The position numbers and the translations under genes were made by a program. This document shows, one piece after another, positions 676 to 9,600 of a stretch of 64,000 bases of DNA (within the stretch, counting starts at the first letter, position 1; every line of letters begins with the position of its first letter). The stretch is from assembly GCF_021534965.1 (NCBI RefSeq), contig NZ_CP091037.1, forward strand, positions 1,528,501 through 1,592,500, read 5' to 3'. Source of the DNA: Muricauda sp. SCSIO 65647. Its GTDB lineage: Bacteria; Bacteroidota; Bacteroidia; Flavobacteriales; Flavobacteriaceae. Below the pieces are notes generated by a model, which saw only the letters and a list, made by a program, of their open reading frames with translations, was not told the DNA's origin and made no database searches.

Positions 676-774
676 GATAGGTATTTTGAATTAGTCAGAA
701 GCTAAAAATACGGAAAATGGACATCTTTTTTTCATTAAAAATTAACATCCCGATAAGTTCTTAGAGTCTTTTGT

Positions 775-782
775 TAGCTTTG
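775..782 (+). promoter_or_regulatory. -7 box (TAGCTTTG) of the restriction-modification operon
   Basis: TAGCTTTG fits the Bacteroidota -7 consensus TAnnTTTG and lies 18 bases before the ATG at 801. No convincing TTG -33 element is seen at the usual spacing. Transcription from here would start near 788-790. That excludes the in-frame TTG at 771 as start codon and supports ATG 801. Confidence 0.45.
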
Positions 783-800
783 AGTGTATTTAGCAGATTT

Positions 801-2642
801 ATGAGATATTACGGAGCCAAAACAAAACTTCTCCCACTTATAGAAGAAGTAGTCAAATCAACTGGAGTAAATGGAACATCAAATTTTGTTGACTTATTTG
901 CCGGCACTACTTCCGTTGGACAGCATTTTAAAAAGTTAGGCTATACGGTTTATTCTAACGATATGTTAGAGTTTTCATATGCTTTATCAAAAACGTATAT
1001 AGAACTCAACAAAGAACCTCAGTTCAAAAAACTCAATTCGAAATTAAAGCTAAAAAATGGCATAAGCTCATTGTTAAATTATTTAAACAAGTCAGATACA
1101 AATACTCAAGGTTTCATCTATGAAAACTACTCCCCAAATGGAGAAAGGATGTACTTCACAGATGAGAATGCTCAAAAAATTGACACATTTAGAACTCTAT
1201 TTGAGGAATGGAAAAATGAAAAATTAATCAATGAATTAGAGTACTATTATTTAATTACCTCTTTACTACGTGGAGTTAATTTAATTAGTAACGTTACTGG
1301 CACTTATGGGGCCTATTTAAAAACTTGGGATAATCGTGCATTAAAACCTTTAATTCTTGAAGAAGTTCCGATTATTAAAAGTTCTACCAAAAACAAGGCT
1401 TTTAAAAAAGATGCCAACGAGCTAATAAAGAGCATTAAACCTGACATTCTTTATTTAGATCCACCTTACAATTCAAGGCAGTATGCATCAAATTACTTCC
1501 TACTTGAACTAATTGCAGAAGGCTGGTTTGGCGAAAAGCAACCAGAAATATATGGCAAAACAGGAATGAGAAACTATGAACATCAGAAATCTGATTATTG
1601 TTCTAAAACTAAAGCATTAAACGCGTTAGAGGATTTAGTTCTGAATGGCAGTAAAGCAAAATATATTCTCTTAAGTTACAATAACGAAGGTGTTATTAGT
1701 CAACCTGGTATTCAAAAAGTTTTGGAAAAAGTTGGCGAGGTTGAAACAATGTTTGAAAATCATAAAAGATACCGAAGCATAAATCAAACCGTTGAAGACC
1801 CACAATTGACGATGGAATTTGTTTATAAAGTAAAACCAAAAAAAACAGTCAACAAGACCAACAATTTATCTGGCAAAGAATGGTTGCAAAACTCTTTCAG
1901 TATATGGAGAGAATTAGGAAAGACTGACGAGGAAAGAAAGTTAAACCATCCTGCAATTTTCACAATAAAACTTGCCTCAAAATTAATTGACACTTTTTGC
2001 AAACCCAATGGCGGCAAAATTTTAGACCCATTTGCTGGTTCAGGAACTACCCTTTTGGCAGGTTTAATGAAAAAGAAAGAAATAATAGGGTTTGACTTAA
2101 ATCCAGAATTCAAAGAACTTTTTATCAAGAGAGCTACTCAATCATATAACTTCGACGAATACAATCTTGAAAAAAAATATATAGTCAATGACTCAAGATT
2201 TTTAACAAATCACATCGAAGAGAATAGCGTTGATTTGTGTATAACATCGCCACCTTACTGGGATGTTTTAAATAGAAGAAGAACAGCCGACTATAAAGAT
2301 AACGTCAACTATTCTGACCAAAATGAGGACTTAGGAAACATTGAGGATTACAATGAGTTTCTTCAATCCTTAAAAGAAGTTACCGGCGAAGTGTTTAAAA
2401 GCTTAAAGCCTAAAGGGTATTACATCTTAAATGTTATGGACTTAAGAAAGAAAAGTAATTTTTATCCATTGCATATGGATGCATCAATGTTGGCAAAAGA
2501 AATTGGTTTTAATTTGGAAGATATAATTATTTGGGACAGACAAAACGAATATAACAATATGCGGCCACTTGGTTACCCATATAAATTTATTGTCAACAAG
2601 GTTCATGAATACCTTTTAATTTTAAGAAAACCGGAAAAATGA
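801..2642 (+). CDS. Two-domain DNA methyltransferase (D12-class adenine MTase fused to N4/N6-MTase)
   Basis: The protein has 613 residues and starts MRYYGAKTKLLP, typical of D12/Dam-class adenine methylases. Domain 1 has the AdoMet motif DLFAGTTSVG (about residues 30-40) and catalytic DPPYNSRQY (about 220). Domain 2 has a motif-X/I block (NHPAIFTIKLASKLI, then LDPFAGSGTT at about 408) and a second catalytic motif, TSPPYWD, at about 482. In domain 2 the AdoMet motif precedes the catalytic motif, although its sequence is N4/N6 beta-type. Fused methyltransferases usually protect the two strands of an asymmetric site, so a type IIS-like system is inferred. The ATG at 801 is preferred over the upstream TTG. 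The next gene overlaps it by ATGA. AT-rich codon use differs from the genes on either side, which suggests transfer. Confidence 0.9.
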   Translation: MRYYGAKTKLLPLIEEVVKSTGVNGTSNFVDLFAGTTSVGQHFKKLGYTVYSNDMLEFSYALSKTYIELNKEPQFKKLNSKLKLKNGISSLLNYLNKSDTNTQGFIYENYSPNGERMYFTDENAQKIDTFRTLFEEWKNEKLINELEYYYLITSLLRGVNLISNVTGTYGAYLKTWDNRALKPLILEEVPIIKSSTKNKAFKKDANELIKSIKPDILYLDPPYNSRQYASNYFLLELIAEGWFGEKQPEIYGKTGMRNYEHQKSDYCSKTKALNALEDLVLNGSKAKYILLSYNNEGVISQPGIQKVLEKVGEVETMFENHKRYRSINQTVEDPQLTMEFVYKVKPKKTVNKTNNLSGKEWLQNSFSIWRELGKTDEERKLNHPAIFTIKLASKLIDTFCKPNGGKILDPFAGSGTTLLAGLMKKKEIIGFDLNPEFKELFIKRATQSYNFDEYNLEKKYIVNDSRFLTNHIEENSVDLCITSPPYWDVLNRRRTADYKDNVNYSDQNEDLGNIEDYNEFLQSLKEVTGEVFKSLKPKGYYILNVMDLRKKSNFYPLHMDASMLAKEIGFNLEDIIIWDRQNEYNNMRPLGYPYKFIVNKVHEYLLILRKPEK

Positions 2643-3088
2643 CCCAACAAGAATTTTACATCAATGTAGGGTACTTGGCAAATCCTGAAAGGAGAACGAA
2701 TATCGAAGTTGAAATGCCGCATAGAAGACAAGCTTCATTTATTGCAGAATATGCTACTCTCACAGGCAACTTTCCTTTACCTCCTAACTCAAATATCGCT
2801 CCTTATTATGTTTGGGTACTTGGAACTGACAAATATGGATTAGAAACGCGAGCATATTTCACTTCAAATGCCAACATTCCTCAATCACTAATAGACACTC
2901 TAGAACCAAGGGGTTTTCAAAACAGACCGGGTTATGATGTTTATGATAGAAGAATAAGCAGGAAGAAGAATATCTTTCCGCTTTTAGAAGCTGGTTTTGT
3001 TCTTGGGCCAATCCAGGATGTGAATCGTATAAGACGACTAGTACCAGCAGCTCATATTAATGATTTTCATGCTGGATTTGCTCTTTAA
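2639..3088 (+). CDS. Unknown 149-residue protein in the restriction-modification operon
   Basis: I do not recognise this family. The start codon overlaps the methyltransferase stop (ATGA), and the stop directly abuts the next ATG, so translation is probably coupled. There is no signal peptide or membrane segment, so it should be cytoplasmic. The sequence is mixed alpha/beta-like, with aromatic residues and an Arg-rich middle (YDRRISRKKN, about residue 102) that could contact DNA. Its place between methyltransferase and nuclease genes suggests a specificity, control or small restriction subunit, but nothing in the sequence proves this. AT-rich like its operon partners. Confidence 0.75.
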   Translation: MTQQEFYINVGYLANPERRTNIEVEMPHRRQASFIAEYATLTGNFPLPPNSNIAPYYVWVLGTDKYGLETRAYFTSNANIPQSLIDTLEPRGFQNRPGYDVYDRRISRKKNIFPLLEAGFVLGPIQDVNRIRRLVPAAHINDFHAGFAL

Positions 3089-3991
3089 ATGGAAAAGAAC
3101 AAAATATCAAATTTTTTAACTCCTGATATATCCTATTTATTAGGATTGATAACTGGAAGAGGAGAAATCCAATACAATCGAGATGTTAAAAAAATTATTA
3201 TTGATTTTGAATACAAAAATCAAAAAGTAACTACTGGCAAGTTGGATTTTGATCAAAAGCTACATATCCAAACAAGTCTTGACAAAGTTGTTGTGAGGCT
3301 TCAAAATATGGGAATCAATGTCTCCAAAGACGTTTCTGAAAATAGTATCTCTTTGGTTTTAAAATGGGACAAAGAAGATATTGCTTGGTTGTTTATAAAG
3401 TTTTTAATTAATGGCACGAGATTTAGTTATCATGATTTTCAAGTGCCAGATCCTATTTTTGAATCAACTGAAATCAATAAAAAAGAATTTATTCGTGGGA
3501 TTGGAGATGTCACGGGATATGTTAGACCTTCTAACTATTACGGTTTTTCAAAACCTTATAGACACCGTGTATATTTAGAAATTACTCAAAAAAATTGGTA
3601 TTTGCCACCTCAACTATGCCGGCTATTGCAGTCTGTTGATGTACCAGTTCAGAATATAAACTATGGTCATCCAAATTTAAGAGACCCAAACAACAAAAAA
3701 GGTAATAGGTTTTGGGCTAAGGAGCATCAAATGAAATTTTTTGCTGAAGACTATCAAAAAATAGGTTTTTATATTTCCCACAAGGAACAAGCCTTAGCAG
3801 AATTCGCTGAAATAAACAAATCAAATTTTCATACCAGCATTCCTCTATGCAATGGTACCTCGAGTAGAAGTAAAACAAAACCTAAGCATCCGGATGAAAG
3901 TGACCATGAATTGCCAAAAGAGATAAAAAGCAAACACTTTGATGGATACAAAGAGATTTGCAATTGTTTAAACTGTTATATGCAGAACTAA
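3089..3991 (+). CDS. LAGLIDADG-like protein with altered catalytic positions
   Basis: The protein has 300 residues. Two motifs resemble the paired LAGLIDADG helices of homing endonucleases: YLLGLITGRGEI (residues 16-27) and FIRGIGDVTGYV (about 134-145). Between and after them lie beta-rich stretches expected of that fold. In active enzymes the acidic residue near the end of each motif binds metal. Here the first motif has Arg (GRG) and the second Thr (VTG) at that place. The protein may therefore bind DNA without cutting, or use neighbouring acids such as the Glu after GRG or the Asp in GIGDVTG. It follows the previous stop without a gap and overlaps the next gene (TAATG), so it is built into the operon and is not an inserted homing element. 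Family assignment is by eye only. Confidence 0.6.
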   Translation: MEKNKISNFLTPDISYLLGLITGRGEIQYNRDVKKIIIDFEYKNQKVTTGKLDFDQKLHIQTSLDKVVVRLQNMGINVSKDVSENSISLVLKWDKEDIAWLFIKFLINGTRFSYHDFQVPDPIFESTEINKKEFIRGIGDVTGYVRPSNYYGFSKPYRHRVYLEITQKNWYLPPQLCRLLQSVDVPVQNINYGHPNLRDPNNKKGNRFWAKEHQMKFFAEDYQKIGFYISHKEQALAEFAEINKSNFHTSIPLCNGTSSRSKTKPKHPDESDHELPKEIKSKHFDGYKEICNCLNCYMQN

Positions 3992-4473
3992 TGTACAGTA
4001 ATGAAATAGAGATGTATCCAGACATAATAGTTTGGCTAGAGAAAAGACTTAAAGGAAATTATGGTAGAAAAGCTAAAAAAATTACTGTTATAGACACACA
4101 CGATAGCGATTTATCTAATTTCATTATGAAGTTAAATTATCAAAAGTTTTTTCCTGAATTCACAACATACAAAATTCGTCAAGACATTACGGGCTTCATA
4201 GAATATGATGAAAAAGTTGATTTAGTTTTTGTTGAGTGTAAAAATTCAAAACTGACTTTGATTAACCTATCTCAACTAATCGGTTATTCTTGCATTGCTT
4301 TACCAATATTTTCGATTTTAATAGCACCCCAAGGAATGGGAACAACTTTGAACAAACTTTTGACTTCATTTAATCGGAAAGATGTACTTGAATATCGCTC
4401 AAAACGAAAAATTGAAATTTTAAAATGGAATGAAAACAGACAAGATATTGATTATATGAATAGCGTTCTGTAA
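3991..4473 (+). CDS. Small PD-(D/E)XK-type nuclease-like protein
   Basis: The protein has 160 residues from the ATG at 3991, which overlaps the previous stop (TAATG). An in-frame TTG at 3958 would extend it into the upstream gene and is less likely. The core reads KVDLVFVECKN (about residues 75-85): Asp77, then Glu82-Cys-Lys84, matching the D-x(n)-(D/E)xK nuclease core in two adjacent beta strands. The preceding stretch could be the missing helix and first strand. The C-terminal half is hydrophobic then basic. It is likely a restriction subunit acting with the next gene. Such folds also occur in non-nuclease proteins, so activity is an inference. Confidence 0.65.
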   Translation: MYSNEIEMYPDIIVWLEKRLKGNYGRKAKKITVIDTHDSDLSNFIMKLNYQKFFPEFTTYKIRQDITGFIEYDEKVDLVFVECKNSKLTLINLSQLIGYSCIALPIFSILIAPQGMGTTLNKLLTSFNRKDVLEYRSKRKIEILKWNENRQDIDYMNSVL

Positions 4474-4485
4474 CATCAAAATAGT

Positions 4486-5211
4486 ATGAACAAGTTCAAA
4501 TCTGCCGCCATTCAAATACTAAAAAAAGCTGGTAAGCCTCTTCACTATAAAGAGATTACTAAGTTGGCTCTAGAAAAAGGCATTCTTGAAACTCATGGAA
4601 AAACACCTGCTGCTTCAATGAACGCGCAAATAGTTACCGATATAAATGCCAAAGGTTCCAATTCTAACTTCATCAAAACAGCTCCTGCCACGTACGCCTT
4701 AAATCTTAAAAAGAAGCAACAAGAAGAAGTAAAATCGGTAAAATCAGAAATTTTCGAAAAAATAGGTAGTGGTTTTATAGGTAAAGCTGGTGAGCATTTT
4801 GTCACTTCAGAGTTACTATTTAGGGGTTATAATGCCAGCATAATGAGCGTAGATATTGGAATGGATATAATTGCTACCAAAAATAATAAGCTTTTCTCCT
4901 TACAAGTCAAAACATCTAATCTACTAGGTTCAAATAGCTACATTTTTGACATGCGAAAAGTCTCTTTAGAAAGAGACCATGCAGGTAATGTCTTTTACGT
5001 TTTTGTAATGATTCATCCTAATAATAAGAAATCTGCTGTAATCTTAACGCCAAACAAAATTGAAGAATTGATACATTCAAATGCAATTAAGAATATTGAA
5101 AAGTATGGTCGTTTTAGGGTTGTATTAAAAATCAGAGATAATAGAATATTTATAGGTACTCTTGACAACCCAATTGATTATTATTGGAATAATTGGTCAA
5201 TTATTAAGTAA
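4486..5211 (+). CDS. HARE-HTH plus PD-(D/E)XK restriction endonuclease-like protein
   Basis: The protein has 241 residues. Residues 1-73 match the HARE-HTH winged-helix domain (HB1/ASXL/restriction endonuclease HTH): AIQILKKAGKPLHYKEIT is a typical first part. A short Lys/Glu linker follows, then a nuclease-like domain with GKAGEHFVTSELLFRGY (Glu103), GMDIIA (Asp127) and LQVKTS (Gln140-Val-Lys142), the E-D-QxK pattern of Mrr-like and related PD-(D/E)XK enzymes. It is the best candidate for the DNA-cutting subunit of the operon. The gene starts 12 bases after the previous stop and ends the AT-rich block. Confidence 0.75.
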   Translation: MNKFKSAAIQILKKAGKPLHYKEITKLALEKGILETHGKTPAASMNAQIVTDINAKGSNSNFIKTAPATYALNLKKKQQEEVKSVKSEIFEKIGSGFIGKAGEHFVTSELLFRGYNASIMSVDIGMDIIATKNNKLFSLQVKTSNLLGSNSYIFDMRKVSLERDHAGNVFYVFVMIHPNNKKSAVILTPNKIEELIHSNAIKNIEKYGRFRVVLKIRDNRIFIGTLDNPIDYYWNNWSIIK

Positions 5212-5358
5212 CATTTTACTCATTCAACCTACTGCTTGTCCTCATCTATAAATTCACCCGAGCTGACAGTTTAGGACTTATAGAACATCAAATTTTTAGC
5301 GGTGTATTACTTAAAATTTTTCTCTAACTTGAAGAAGATACTATCATTTTCCAGCCTC

Positions 5359-5826
5359 ATGAAACGATTTTTACTTCTAGGATGCTTATTGGTTATTTCC
5401 TGCCAACCCCAACCGGGTAAACCCAACAAATCTCAAATTCCAAATTCCAAGCTCACCAAAACCTATATCGACCCCGCCCAAGGCTATTCACAAGCCGTGG
5501 CGGTGGAGGCCAATGGGGTCCAGACCATTTATATTTCTGGCCAAGTGGGCAGTGGCGAGAGCTTTGAGGACCAATTTCGAGATGCGTTGAGCAAACTTTT
5601 CAAAACGCTCGAAAACGCAGGGGCCACCTTTGATGATGTGGTCAAGTACAATACCTATATCGTCGACTACCAGCCCGCCTATCTCGATACCTTTAGAACG
5701 GTCAGAAAAGAACTCTTGGGCGATAAAGACATGCCCGCCAGCACCTTGGTGGGGGTACAGGCCCTGGGGCTGCCCGATTGGGGCGTGGAGATCGAGGCCA
5801 TTGCCGTGGTCAATAGCGCCGAATAA
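5359..5826 (+). CDS. RidA family (YjgF/YER057c/UK114) lipoprotein
   Basis: The protein has 155 residues from ATG 5359; an in-frame GTG at 5302 would place 19 residues before the signal peptide and is rejected. It begins MKRFLLLGCLLVISC, a lipoprotein signal with Cys as the lipidated residue. The rest is a RidA fold: IYISGQVG, an internal helix with LKTLENAG-like sequence, PASTLVGV, and a C-terminal strand VEIEAIAVV. RidA proteins deaminate reactive enamine/imine intermediates, but the usual catalytic Arg in the PxRxxV region is replaced (PASTLVGV), so activity is doubtful. Envelope-anchored versions are common in Bacteroidota, with unknown substrate. Confidence 0.85.
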   Translation: MKRFLLLGCLLVISCQPQPGKPNKSQIPNSKLTKTYIDPAQGYSQAVAVEANGVQTIYISGQVGSGESFEDQFRDALSKLFKTLENAGATFDDVVKYNTYIVDYQPAYLDTFRTVRKELLGDKDMPASTLVGVQALGLPDWGVEIEAIAVVNSAE

Positions 5827-7297: not shown

Positions 7298-8418
7298 ACA
7301 AGAACTACCTAGTACCGCTACTGTTTCTGTTAAGCATCGTCATGTGCCAATCACAGGTCCGCCTACGCGATCATGGTATTGAAATCGGTGTTTTGAAAAC
7401 CGGACCTCTCAACGCCATTACCGATGTGCCTGGGGTCAAGGTGGGGCACCAGACCCTTCATAAGGGAGATACGGTGCGAACCGGGGTAACGGCCATTCTG
7501 CCACATGAGGGCAACCTCTTTCAAGAAAAAGTGCCCGCTGCCATCTATGTGGGCAATGGCTTCGGCAAACTGGCGGGCTATACCCAGGTAAAGGAGTTGG
7601 GTAATTTAGAAACCCCTATTGTACTCACCAATACATTGAGTGTGGCCACGGCCGTCAATGCGGTCATTGGCCATACCTTGCAACAACCCGATAATGAAAC
7701 GGTGCGCTCGGTCAATGCCGTAGTGGGCGAGACCAATGATGGTTATCTTAACGATATTCGTGGGCGGCATGTCACCGAAGACGATGTGCTTCGCGCCATT
7801 GCAGGTGCCGGTTCGGGCGCCGTACAAGAGGGCAACTTGGGTGCCGGTACGGGCACGGTATGTTTTGGCTATAAAGGCGGTATCGGCACTTCGTCACGGG
7901 TGCTTCCTGAAAAAACAGGTGGGTATACCGTTGGGGTATTGGTGCAAAGCAACTTCGGTGGGGTACTGCAGATCGCCGGCGTGGAAGTCGGCAAAAAATT
8001 GGGGCACTATTCCGATAGTTTCAAATACACGCCCGATGGTTCGTGTATGATTGTCGTGATGACCGATGCGCCATTGCATTCCCGAAACCTGGAACGATTG
8101 GCAAAAAGGGCCATGTTGGGACTCGCGAGAACGGGGGGCATTGCCAGCAACGGTAGCGGTGATTATGTGATAGCGGTTTCAACAGCTGAGGAATGTCGCA
8201 TTCCCTATACCAGTGACGCGCCTGTTCAGACCGTGCCCACTTTGAGAAACGAGGCCATGACCCCTTTGTTCTTGGCGGTGATCGAGGCGACGGAGGAAGC
8301 CATTCTGAATTCCCTTTTTGCGGCCGAGACCATGACCGGATACAAGGGCCACACGATAGAGACCCTTTCGAAAGAAAAGGTGCTACAACTGCTTAGGGAA
8401 GCTGGGAAAATCAAGTAG
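7294..8418 (+). CDS. P1 family (S58, DmpA-like) aminopeptidase/esterase, exported
   Basis: The protein has 374 residues from the ATG at 7294, which overlaps the previous stop and gives a clean signal peptide (MNKNYLVPLLFLLSIVMC). The upstream ATG at 7258 adds 12 charged residues and is unlikely. The mature protein follows the DmpA/L-aminopeptidase family: N-terminal GPLNAITDVPGVKVGHQT, AGAGSGAVQEGNLGAGTG, and GGIGTSSR, where the Ser after Gly-Thr is the autoprocessing site and N-terminal nucleophile. These enzymes release N-terminal D- or L-residues from small peptides or amides. The last 25 codons are copied 0.8 kb downstream (9145-9219). Confidence 0.9.
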   Translation: MNKNYLVPLLFLLSIVMCQSQVRLRDHGIEIGVLKTGPLNAITDVPGVKVGHQTLHKGDTVRTGVTAILPHEGNLFQEKVPAAIYVGNGFGKLAGYTQVKELGNLETPIVLTNTLSVATAVNAVIGHTLQQPDNETVRSVNAVVGETNDGYLNDIRGRHVTEDDVLRAIAGAGSGAVQEGNLGAGTGTVCFGYKGGIGTSSRVLPEKTGGYTVGVLVQSNFGGVLQIAGVEVGKKLGHYSDSFKYTPDGSCMIVVMTDAPLHSRNLERLAKRAMLGLARTGGIASNGSGDYVIAVSTAEECRIPYTSDAPVQTVPTLRNEAMTPLFLAVIEATEEAILNSLFAAETMTGYKGHTIETLSKEKVLQLLREAGKIK

Positions 8419-8434
8419 GCCAAAAAATGTTCCC

Positions 8435-8553
8435 GTCATTTCGAACCGACCTGCACTAAGCAGCGAGCGTGAGAAATCTCAAATAATAGAAAATAGAGAT
8501 TCCTCGTCGTCCCTCTCTCACTCTCGATAGCTATCGGGACTCTGTCGGAATGA
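8435..8553. repeat. Palindromic repeat element with GTCATTTCGA ends, copy 1
   Basis: The element starts GTCATTTCGA and ends TCGGAATGA, imperfect inverted ends. Inside are GAGAAATCTC and GAGATTCCTCG, complementary arms, and the palindrome GATAGCTATC. It lies 17 bases after the peptidase stop codon. It belongs to the same family as the elements at 9237, 10801, 19158 and 56050. Confidence 0.75.
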
Positions 8554-9142
8554 GAAAGCCACCTGAAGCCCTCTTCCGGATTCTTCACTGCGTTCAGAAT
8601 GACAAATGATGAAAATAGTCTCTCTTGTCATGCTGAGGAGTCTTCGACGAAGCATCTAGACAAGCCCCTCCCAAAAACACAGGCTTCTTCCCTTACCACG
8701 ATCTCACAAAGCCGCTTGAAGCCTTCCTCTGGATTCTTCACTGCACTACGCTCCGTTCAGAATGACAAATGATGAAAAGAGCCCTTCTTGTCATGCTGAG
8801 GAGTCCTCGACGAAGCATCTTGACAAGGGCCTCCCATTAGAACACGGGCCTCTTTCCTTGCCATGATCTCACAAAGCCACCTGAAACCTTCCTCTGGATT
8901 CTTCACTGCGTTCAGAATGACAAAGGATGAAAAAAGCCGCTCTTGTCATGCTGAGGAGTCCTCGACGAAGCATCTAGACAAGCCCCTCCCATTAAAACAC
9001 GGGCTTCTTCCCTGACCATGATCTCACAAAGCCACTTGAAGCCCTCTTCTGGATTCTTCACTGCACTACGCTCCGTTCAGAATGACAAATGATGAAAATA
9101 GTCTCTCTTGTCATACTAAGGAGTCCTCGACGAAGCATCTAG

Positions 9143-9219
9143 ACAAGGGCCACACGATAGAGGCCCTTCCGAAAAAAAAGGTGCTACAACTGCTTAGGGA
9201 AGCTGGGAAAATCAAGTAG
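9143..9219 (+). pseudogene. Duplicated 3' end of the P1 peptidase gene
   Basis: This stretch repeats 8342-8418 with only a few substitutions and still reads in frame KGHTIEALPKKKVLQLL...AGKIK followed by TAG. The junction lies in ACAAGGGC, which occurs both in the gene and in the flanking 154-bp repeat, so short homology could have driven a tandem duplication of about 801 bp. It has no start or N-terminal part and is not a functional gene. Confidence 0.85.
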
Positions 9220-9236
9220 GCCAAAAAAATGTTCCC

Positions 9237-9355
9237 GTCATTTCGAACCGACCTGCGCTAAGCAGCGAGCGTGAGAAATCTCAAAGAATAGAAAATAGAG
9301 ATTCCTCGTCGCCCCCCCTCACTCCCGATAGCTATCGGGACTCTGTCGGAATGAC
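9237..9355. repeat. Palindromic repeat element, copy 2 (within the tandem duplication)
   Basis: Same length and layout as 8435-8553, about 802 bases downstream. Ends are GTCATTTCGA and TCGGAATGAC. The central palindrome CCCGATAGCTATCGGG at 9324-9339 is perfect in this copy. Confidence 0.75.
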
Positions 9356-9600
9356 AAAGCCACCCGAAACCTTCCTCTGGATTCTTCACTTCGTTCAGAA
9401 TGACAAATGATGAAAAAAGCCGCTCTTGTCATGCTGAGGAGTCCTCGACGAAGCATCCAGACAAGGGTCTCCATTAGAACAAGGGCTTCTTTCCTTGCCA
9501 TGATCTCACAAAGCCGTGAAGCCCTCTTCTGGATTCTTCACTGTGTTCAGAATGACCAAATACGTAGTGTAACAATTCCAAAAAAAATTCTACCAATAGA

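Follow-up and report, generated by a model that had tools for sequence, protein, structure and literature searches.

A probable mobile Type II-like restriction-modification system in Muricauda sp. SCSIO 65647 with a predicted dead LAGLIDADG specificity subunit and a separate predicted PD-(D/E)XK nuclease

Results

A 64,000-nucleotide stretch of DNA (hereafter the window, positions 1,528,501-1,592,500 of the complete 3.81-Mb genome of Muricauda sp. SCSIO 65647) was found to carry what is likely a mobile Type II-like restriction-modification (R-M) system. Its restriction enzyme would be a complex of two proteins encoded by overlapping genes, P0003, a protein of predicted LAGLIDADG fold deprived of its catalytic acids that would read the DNA, and P0004, a predicted PD-(D/E)XK nuclease that would cut it. 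The features discussed below are collected in Table 1.

Table 1. Features of the R-M island, in window coordinates
Feature	Position	Strand	Basis or remark
Replaced/inserted segment (defence hotspot)	about 699..5395	no strand	Flank alignment with congener G395
P0001, fused double DNA methyltransferase	801..2642	+	D12-class (DPPY) + N6_N4-type (SPPY); Pfam
P0002, 149 aa, recurrent optional accessory	2639..3088	+	Relatives in other loci
P0003, predicted specificity subunit, two-domain LAGLIDADG fold	3089..3991	+	AlphaFold2 model, Foldseek, VIA-align
LAGLIDADG motif 1, YLLGLITGRGEI	3134..3169	+	R24 (codon 3158-3160) at catalytic Asp position
LAGLIDADG motif 2, FIRGIGDVTGYVR	3488..3526	+	T142 (codon 3512-3514) at second catalytic acid position
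P0004, predicted cleavage subunit, PD-(D/E)XK, 160 aa	3991..4473	+	AlphaFold2, VIA-align
P0004 predicted active site, D65 ... E82-x-K84	4183..4242	+	Invariant in 12/12
P0005, HARE-HTH + PD-(D/E)XK-like protein	4486..5211	+	Pfam

Genomic setting of the island

A preliminary description of this DNA had pointed out five closely spaced genes in an AT-rich block at 801-5211, and its coordinates, junctions and difference in GC content (0.29-0.35 in the block vs 0.48-0.57 in the flanks) were all confirmed. Gene 1 starts with the ATG at 801 and overlaps gene 2 by ATGA (2639-2642), the stop codon of gene 2 abuts the ATG of gene 3 (3088/3089), genes 3 and 4 share TAATG (3989-3993), and a 12-base gap (4474-4485) precedes gene 5. 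With dN/dS values of 0.02-0.08, genes 1-4 bear the mark of strong purifying selection, gene 5 being without a relative to compare.

Alignment to a congener (G395) showed that both flanks continue in that genome (1-698 and 5396-7421, with nucleotide identity of 94% and 93%, respectively), while the segment between them has been replaced by different, defence-related content. The edges of the segment are formed by a minus-strand gene for an exported beta-propeller protein with a signal peptide and by a RidA-family gene. At the same spot, G395 (locus L049) encodes a ThsB-like TIR protein, a large ATPase-like protein and a small MazG-like protein, a second congener (G397, locus L050) has a complete Type I R-M system, and a third (G396) has ordinary genes. 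The island thus occupies a defence hotspot, and this supports both the acquisition of the island by horizontal transfer, as originally proposed, and its presumed role in defence.

Elsewhere in the window, diverged repeats, each about 155-165 bases long, form an array at 8342-9560, with an 801-base spaced duplication that takes in the 3' end of the gene before the array; genome-wide, the repeat unit occurs at this place only.

Conservation of the P0003-P0004 pair

A search with P0003 through 84,980 species genomes returned four close relatives, from Snuella (L003), two Bacteroidales MAGs (L004 and L005) and Winogradskyella (L006), with P0004 following P0003 in all four and P0001 preceding it in three. 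A protein search of annotated records produced relatives with 35% identity on Lactiplantibacillus plasmids (L007 and L008) and in two gut phages (L009 and L010), annotated as hypothetical proteins only and located beside a DNA methyltransferase, and viral contigs contributed four further loci (L012-L015). With the window included and the two plasmids counted once, the resulting set of 12 loci spans Bacteroidota, a Lactiplantibacillus plasmid, gut phages and viral contigs. Since P0003 was the search key, the tests reported here concern its neighbours.

P0004 adjoins P0003 in 12 out of 12 loci, their genes overlapping by 1, 4, 8 or 11 bases, and a reverse search, in which viral contigs were scanned for the P0004 family only, recovered the same four contigs. 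Pairwise identities of the two proteins are correlated (r = 0.97 across all loci and 0.78 among the non-Bacteroidota loci). Methyltransferases were located upstream of the pair at every locus; the middle genes 3 and 4, whose occurrence elsewhere without methyltransferases would have argued against a single system according to the preliminary description, were thus accompanied by them throughout (12/12). In phages and viral contigs (L009, L010 and L012-L015), it is the entire R-M system that is carried.

The pair is rare in Bacteroidota, being confined to the window's own genome among 395 genomes sampled across the phylum; the same was seen among 395 genomes of the class, aside from a weak partial hit in G624 (57 residues, E 4e-4) that was discounted as chance.

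Predicted folds and active sites

HMM searches of Pfam, NCBIfam, PADLOC and PHROGs with P0002-P0004 gave nothing significant, and profile searches of PDB sequences with P0003 and P0004 gave no real match. The LAGLIDADG-like character ascribed earlier to gene 3 was nevertheless borne out by motifs and predicted fold. P0003 contains the LAGLIDADG motifs YLLGLITGRGEI and FIRGIGDVTGYV, and its AlphaFold2 model, built from nine sequences and of middling confidence (pLDDT 70.8, pTM 0.80), has two copies of the alpha-beta-beta-alpha-beta-beta-alpha order. The best 50 of 72 Foldseek matches in the PDB (E < 0.001) were LAGLIDADG homing endonucleases, inteins, a maturase and engineered derivatives, including I-Tsp061I with E of 9.8e-8. 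VIA-align returned Z scores of 16.3 for PI-SceI, 15.8 for I-Tsp061I and 12-14 (up to 14.1) for WhiA. In a profile alignment of motif 1, YLLGLITGRGE of P0003 was placed on YLLGLIIGDGG of I-DmoI (for which a sequence identical to 1b24 was used). As hhalign assigned this comparison a probability of only 18% (E = 0.0013), the link between the two sequences rests on motif and fold.

Homing endonucleases combine this fold, which is strongly predicted for P0003, with an acidic residue closing each LAGLIDADG helix, which P0003 lacks. Position 24, corresponding to the catalytic Asp, is occupied by R in Bacteroidota and by N in the remaining loci (replaced in 12/12), and position 142, corresponding to the second catalytic acid and located where helix 128-142 of the model ends, is T in 12/12. 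With both catalytic acids replaced, P0003 is predicted to bind DNA without cutting it.

The model of P0004 reached a pLDDT of 93. Its closest structures by VIA-align were all PD-(D/E)XK proteins, namely the PaqCI nuclease (Z = 9.0), a Pyrococcus repair nuclease (8.7), FokI (7.5) and the small subunit of BspD6I (7.3); with a Foldseek E value of 0.013 at best, the fold match is good, not strong. Residues D65, E82, K84 and Q95 are unchanged in all 12 loci. Both hallmarks of PD-(D/E)XK nucleases, the fold and the D...E-x-K motif, are therefore predicted for P0004, in agreement with the initial assignment of gene 4, made together with that of gene 5, for which Pfam recognised a HARE-HTH domain and, below threshold, a PD-(D/E)XK-like part (see below).

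Methyltransferase modules

The double methyltransferase suspected in gene 1 was identified by Pfam (PF02086 with 159.5 bits and PF01555 with 105.1 bits). From its motifs, the D12 half of P0001 is predicted to produce m6A and the SPPY half m4C; orthologues in L004-L006 are 80-90% identical. A gene resembling an XRE-type controller is located directly upstream of the double methyltransferase in L004 (80-448), L005 (5814-6161) and L006 (687-1031), and is absent in the window.

Three unrelated make-ups of the methyltransferase module were distinguished, each locus having one adenine-type and one cytosine-type domain or gene. The D12 + SPPY fusion (module a) is present in the window and L004-L006; an Eco57I/TaqI-like m6A gene with a separate SPPY gene (module b) in L012 and L013, where the SPPY protein has 49-51% identity to the C-terminal half of P0001; and an EcoRI-type m6A with an m5C methyltransferase, fused or split (module c), in L003, L007, L009, L010, L014 and L015. 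These target bases are putative assignments from family and motif (DPPY/NPPF, SPPY, PCQ).

A tree built from the two concatenated proteins of the pair places Snuella as sister to the window (support 100/99), although Snuella has the unrelated module c. The methyltransferases have thus been swapped beside a nuclease pair that remained in place. Provided that the specificity of the pair was preserved (window and Snuella share 84% and 78% identity), the modules of the two must protect the same site. Protection of one site by an adenine and a cytosine methyltransferase suggests that the site is probably asymmetric, with A on one strand and C on the other. The preliminary reading of an R-M system whose double methyltransferase suits an asymmetric site is supported. 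The swapping of modules around a constant pair also yields a prediction, that unrelated methyltransferases should methylate the same sequence.

Is P0003 a regulator?

The dead LAGLIDADG fold of P0003 could, by analogy with WhiA, be that of a regulator. P0003 might then be a WhiA-like transcription regulator acting as controller of the operon and P0004 a complete small restriction enzyme, an explanation that we regard as unlikely, even though controllers are frequent in R-M systems and WhiA, itself a transcription factor with a dead LAGLIDADG fold, matches P0003 (Z = 14.1). P0004 has just 160 residues, and PvuII, a complete enzyme, is of about the same length, so P0004 could in principle recognise DNA by itself. 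However, P0003 has no match to the WhiA family in Pfam at E up to 1, and L004, L005 and L006 keep P0003 despite their XRE-type controller-like gene. Furthermore, the overlap of P0003 with P0004 persists under any upstream methyltransferase module, which points to a stoichiometric partner.

Accessory genes

Co-occurrence of all five genes, for which a comparison of neighbourhoods had been suggested, held for genes 3 and 4 with methyltransferases and failed for genes 2 and 5, and the reading of the five as one unit was not supported. P0002 is a recurrent optional accessory present in 6 of the 12 loci, i.e. the window and, as relatives lying before or after the pair, L004 (diverged), L006 (87%), L012, L013 and L014, and absent elsewhere. 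In L014 (2868-3941) a P0002-like domain lies between the methyltransferases and the pair as part of a fusion with a NOV_C (DUF3883) nuclease-like domain. P0005 has a clear HARE-HTH domain (72.2 bits vs a cut-off of 25.9) and a PD-(D/E)XK-like part with a sub-threshold Pfam match. It was not found at other pair loci, where two of the L003-L006 contigs stop soon after the pair, and no full-length relative was detected among 395 Bacteroidota genomes. Its two domains have relatives in 39 of these 395 genomes (the window's own counted), occurring apart from each other and in unrelated contexts, and in five neighbourhoods of such relatives no methyltransferase pair is present. Neither P0002 nor P0005 had plasmid relatives in our searches. 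P0005 is probably a passenger or a separate nuclease outside the core. In another Bacteroidota genome (L026), a HARE-HTH stretch was noted near two proteins resembling, by eye, BglII-family restriction enzymes.

The position of P0005 in the same island, 12 bases after P0004, and the joining of a P0002 relative to a nuclease-like domain in L014 would fit a Type IIT-like enzyme with two nucleases, in which P0003 recognises the site, P0004 cuts one strand and P0005 or the NOV_C fusion the other. We consider such an arrangement quite improbable: the other loci are without P0005, and similarity of P0005 to the L014 fusion was not significant (BLASTP E = 0.097).

Finally, P0003 might, by its LAGLIDADG fold, be taken for a homing endonuclease, or the remnant of one, lodged among R-M genes. 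Such a reading is hardly credible given the replacement of both catalytic acids in 12/12 loci, the lack of an intron or intein frame, the strong purifying selection and the retention of the gene beside P0004 in distant phyla and phages.

Discussion

We therefore favour a restriction enzyme composed of a P0003 reader and a P0004 cutter. P0001 would mark host sites on both strands, with m6A by its D12 half and m4C by its SPPY half; P0003 would bind the unmarked asymmetric target sequence, and P0004, which has no separate recognition domain, would cut while docked on P0003. Since each pair has a single active site, cutting both strands would require either two complexes or nicks made one after the other. 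By a modest margin of belief, we further lean towards a separate natural class of restriction enzyme, in which a domesticated dead meganuclease reads and a detached PD-(D/E)XK subunit cuts, this pair being conserved to such a degree that three unrelated adenine/cytosine methyltransferase modules have come to be plugged in next to it, each with the same kind of site to protect.

If true, a dead meganuclease as reading head would add a fold to restriction biology and represent a second route of LAGLIDADG domestication, beside WhiA. Reviews sort Type II restriction enzymes according to their catalytic sites, which are of the PD-(D/E)XK, HNH, GIY-YIG or phospholipase-D kind. LAGLIDADG is never mentioned in a 2014 review (PMC4081073), and no LAGLIDADG-based restriction enzyme, nor the natural arrangement proposed here, was found among the open-access papers searched.

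The adjoining of methyltransferase and nuclease genes in 12/12 loci is as expected of a Type II R-M system. In the Type IIT enzymes BsrDI, BtsI and BspD6I, a larger subunit reads the site and is joined by a small nuclease without specificity (PMC4081073). The present system resembles them in its predicted larger reader and small nuclease, in its two methyltransferases, sometimes joined, and in its presumably asymmetric site. However, their large subunit also cuts one strand, whereas P0003 has a LAGLIDADG fold without catalytic acids. Two different catalytic sites characterise Type IIT enzymes; here one intact site is predicted (P0004), and the system is therefore filed as a variant of Type II R-M. 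The analogy with BsrDI and BbvCI drawn in the preliminary description is supported as regards a two-subunit enzyme and falls as regards the partners, the conserved pair being the LAGLIDADG-like protein and the small nuclease instead of two PD-(D/E)XK proteins. Another double methyltransferase, that of MhoVII (PMC12898733), is a different fusion, of YhdJ-type and D12 parts that both produce m6A.

P0003 is similar to PI-SceI, I-Tsp061I and I-DmoI in predicted fold and motif positions but differs in its replaced catalytic acids and in being encoded outside any intron or intein, as part of an R-M operon that also encodes a separate nuclease. Like WhiA/DUF199, it is predicted to use a dead LAGLIDADG fold for binding DNA, and is set apart by the absence of a WhiA match in Pfam, its nuclease partner and its R-M setting. 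The closest known design is man-made: the fusions of catalytically inactive I-SceI and PvuII engineered by Fonfara et al. (2012), as described in PMC5751168. There, as proposed here, a dead meganuclease targets and a PD-(D/E)XK nuclease cuts; unlike those fusions, the P0003-P0004 pair is natural, encoded by two genes and accompanied by cognate methyltransferases, and would, if the proposal holds, be nature's version of the engineered enzymes.
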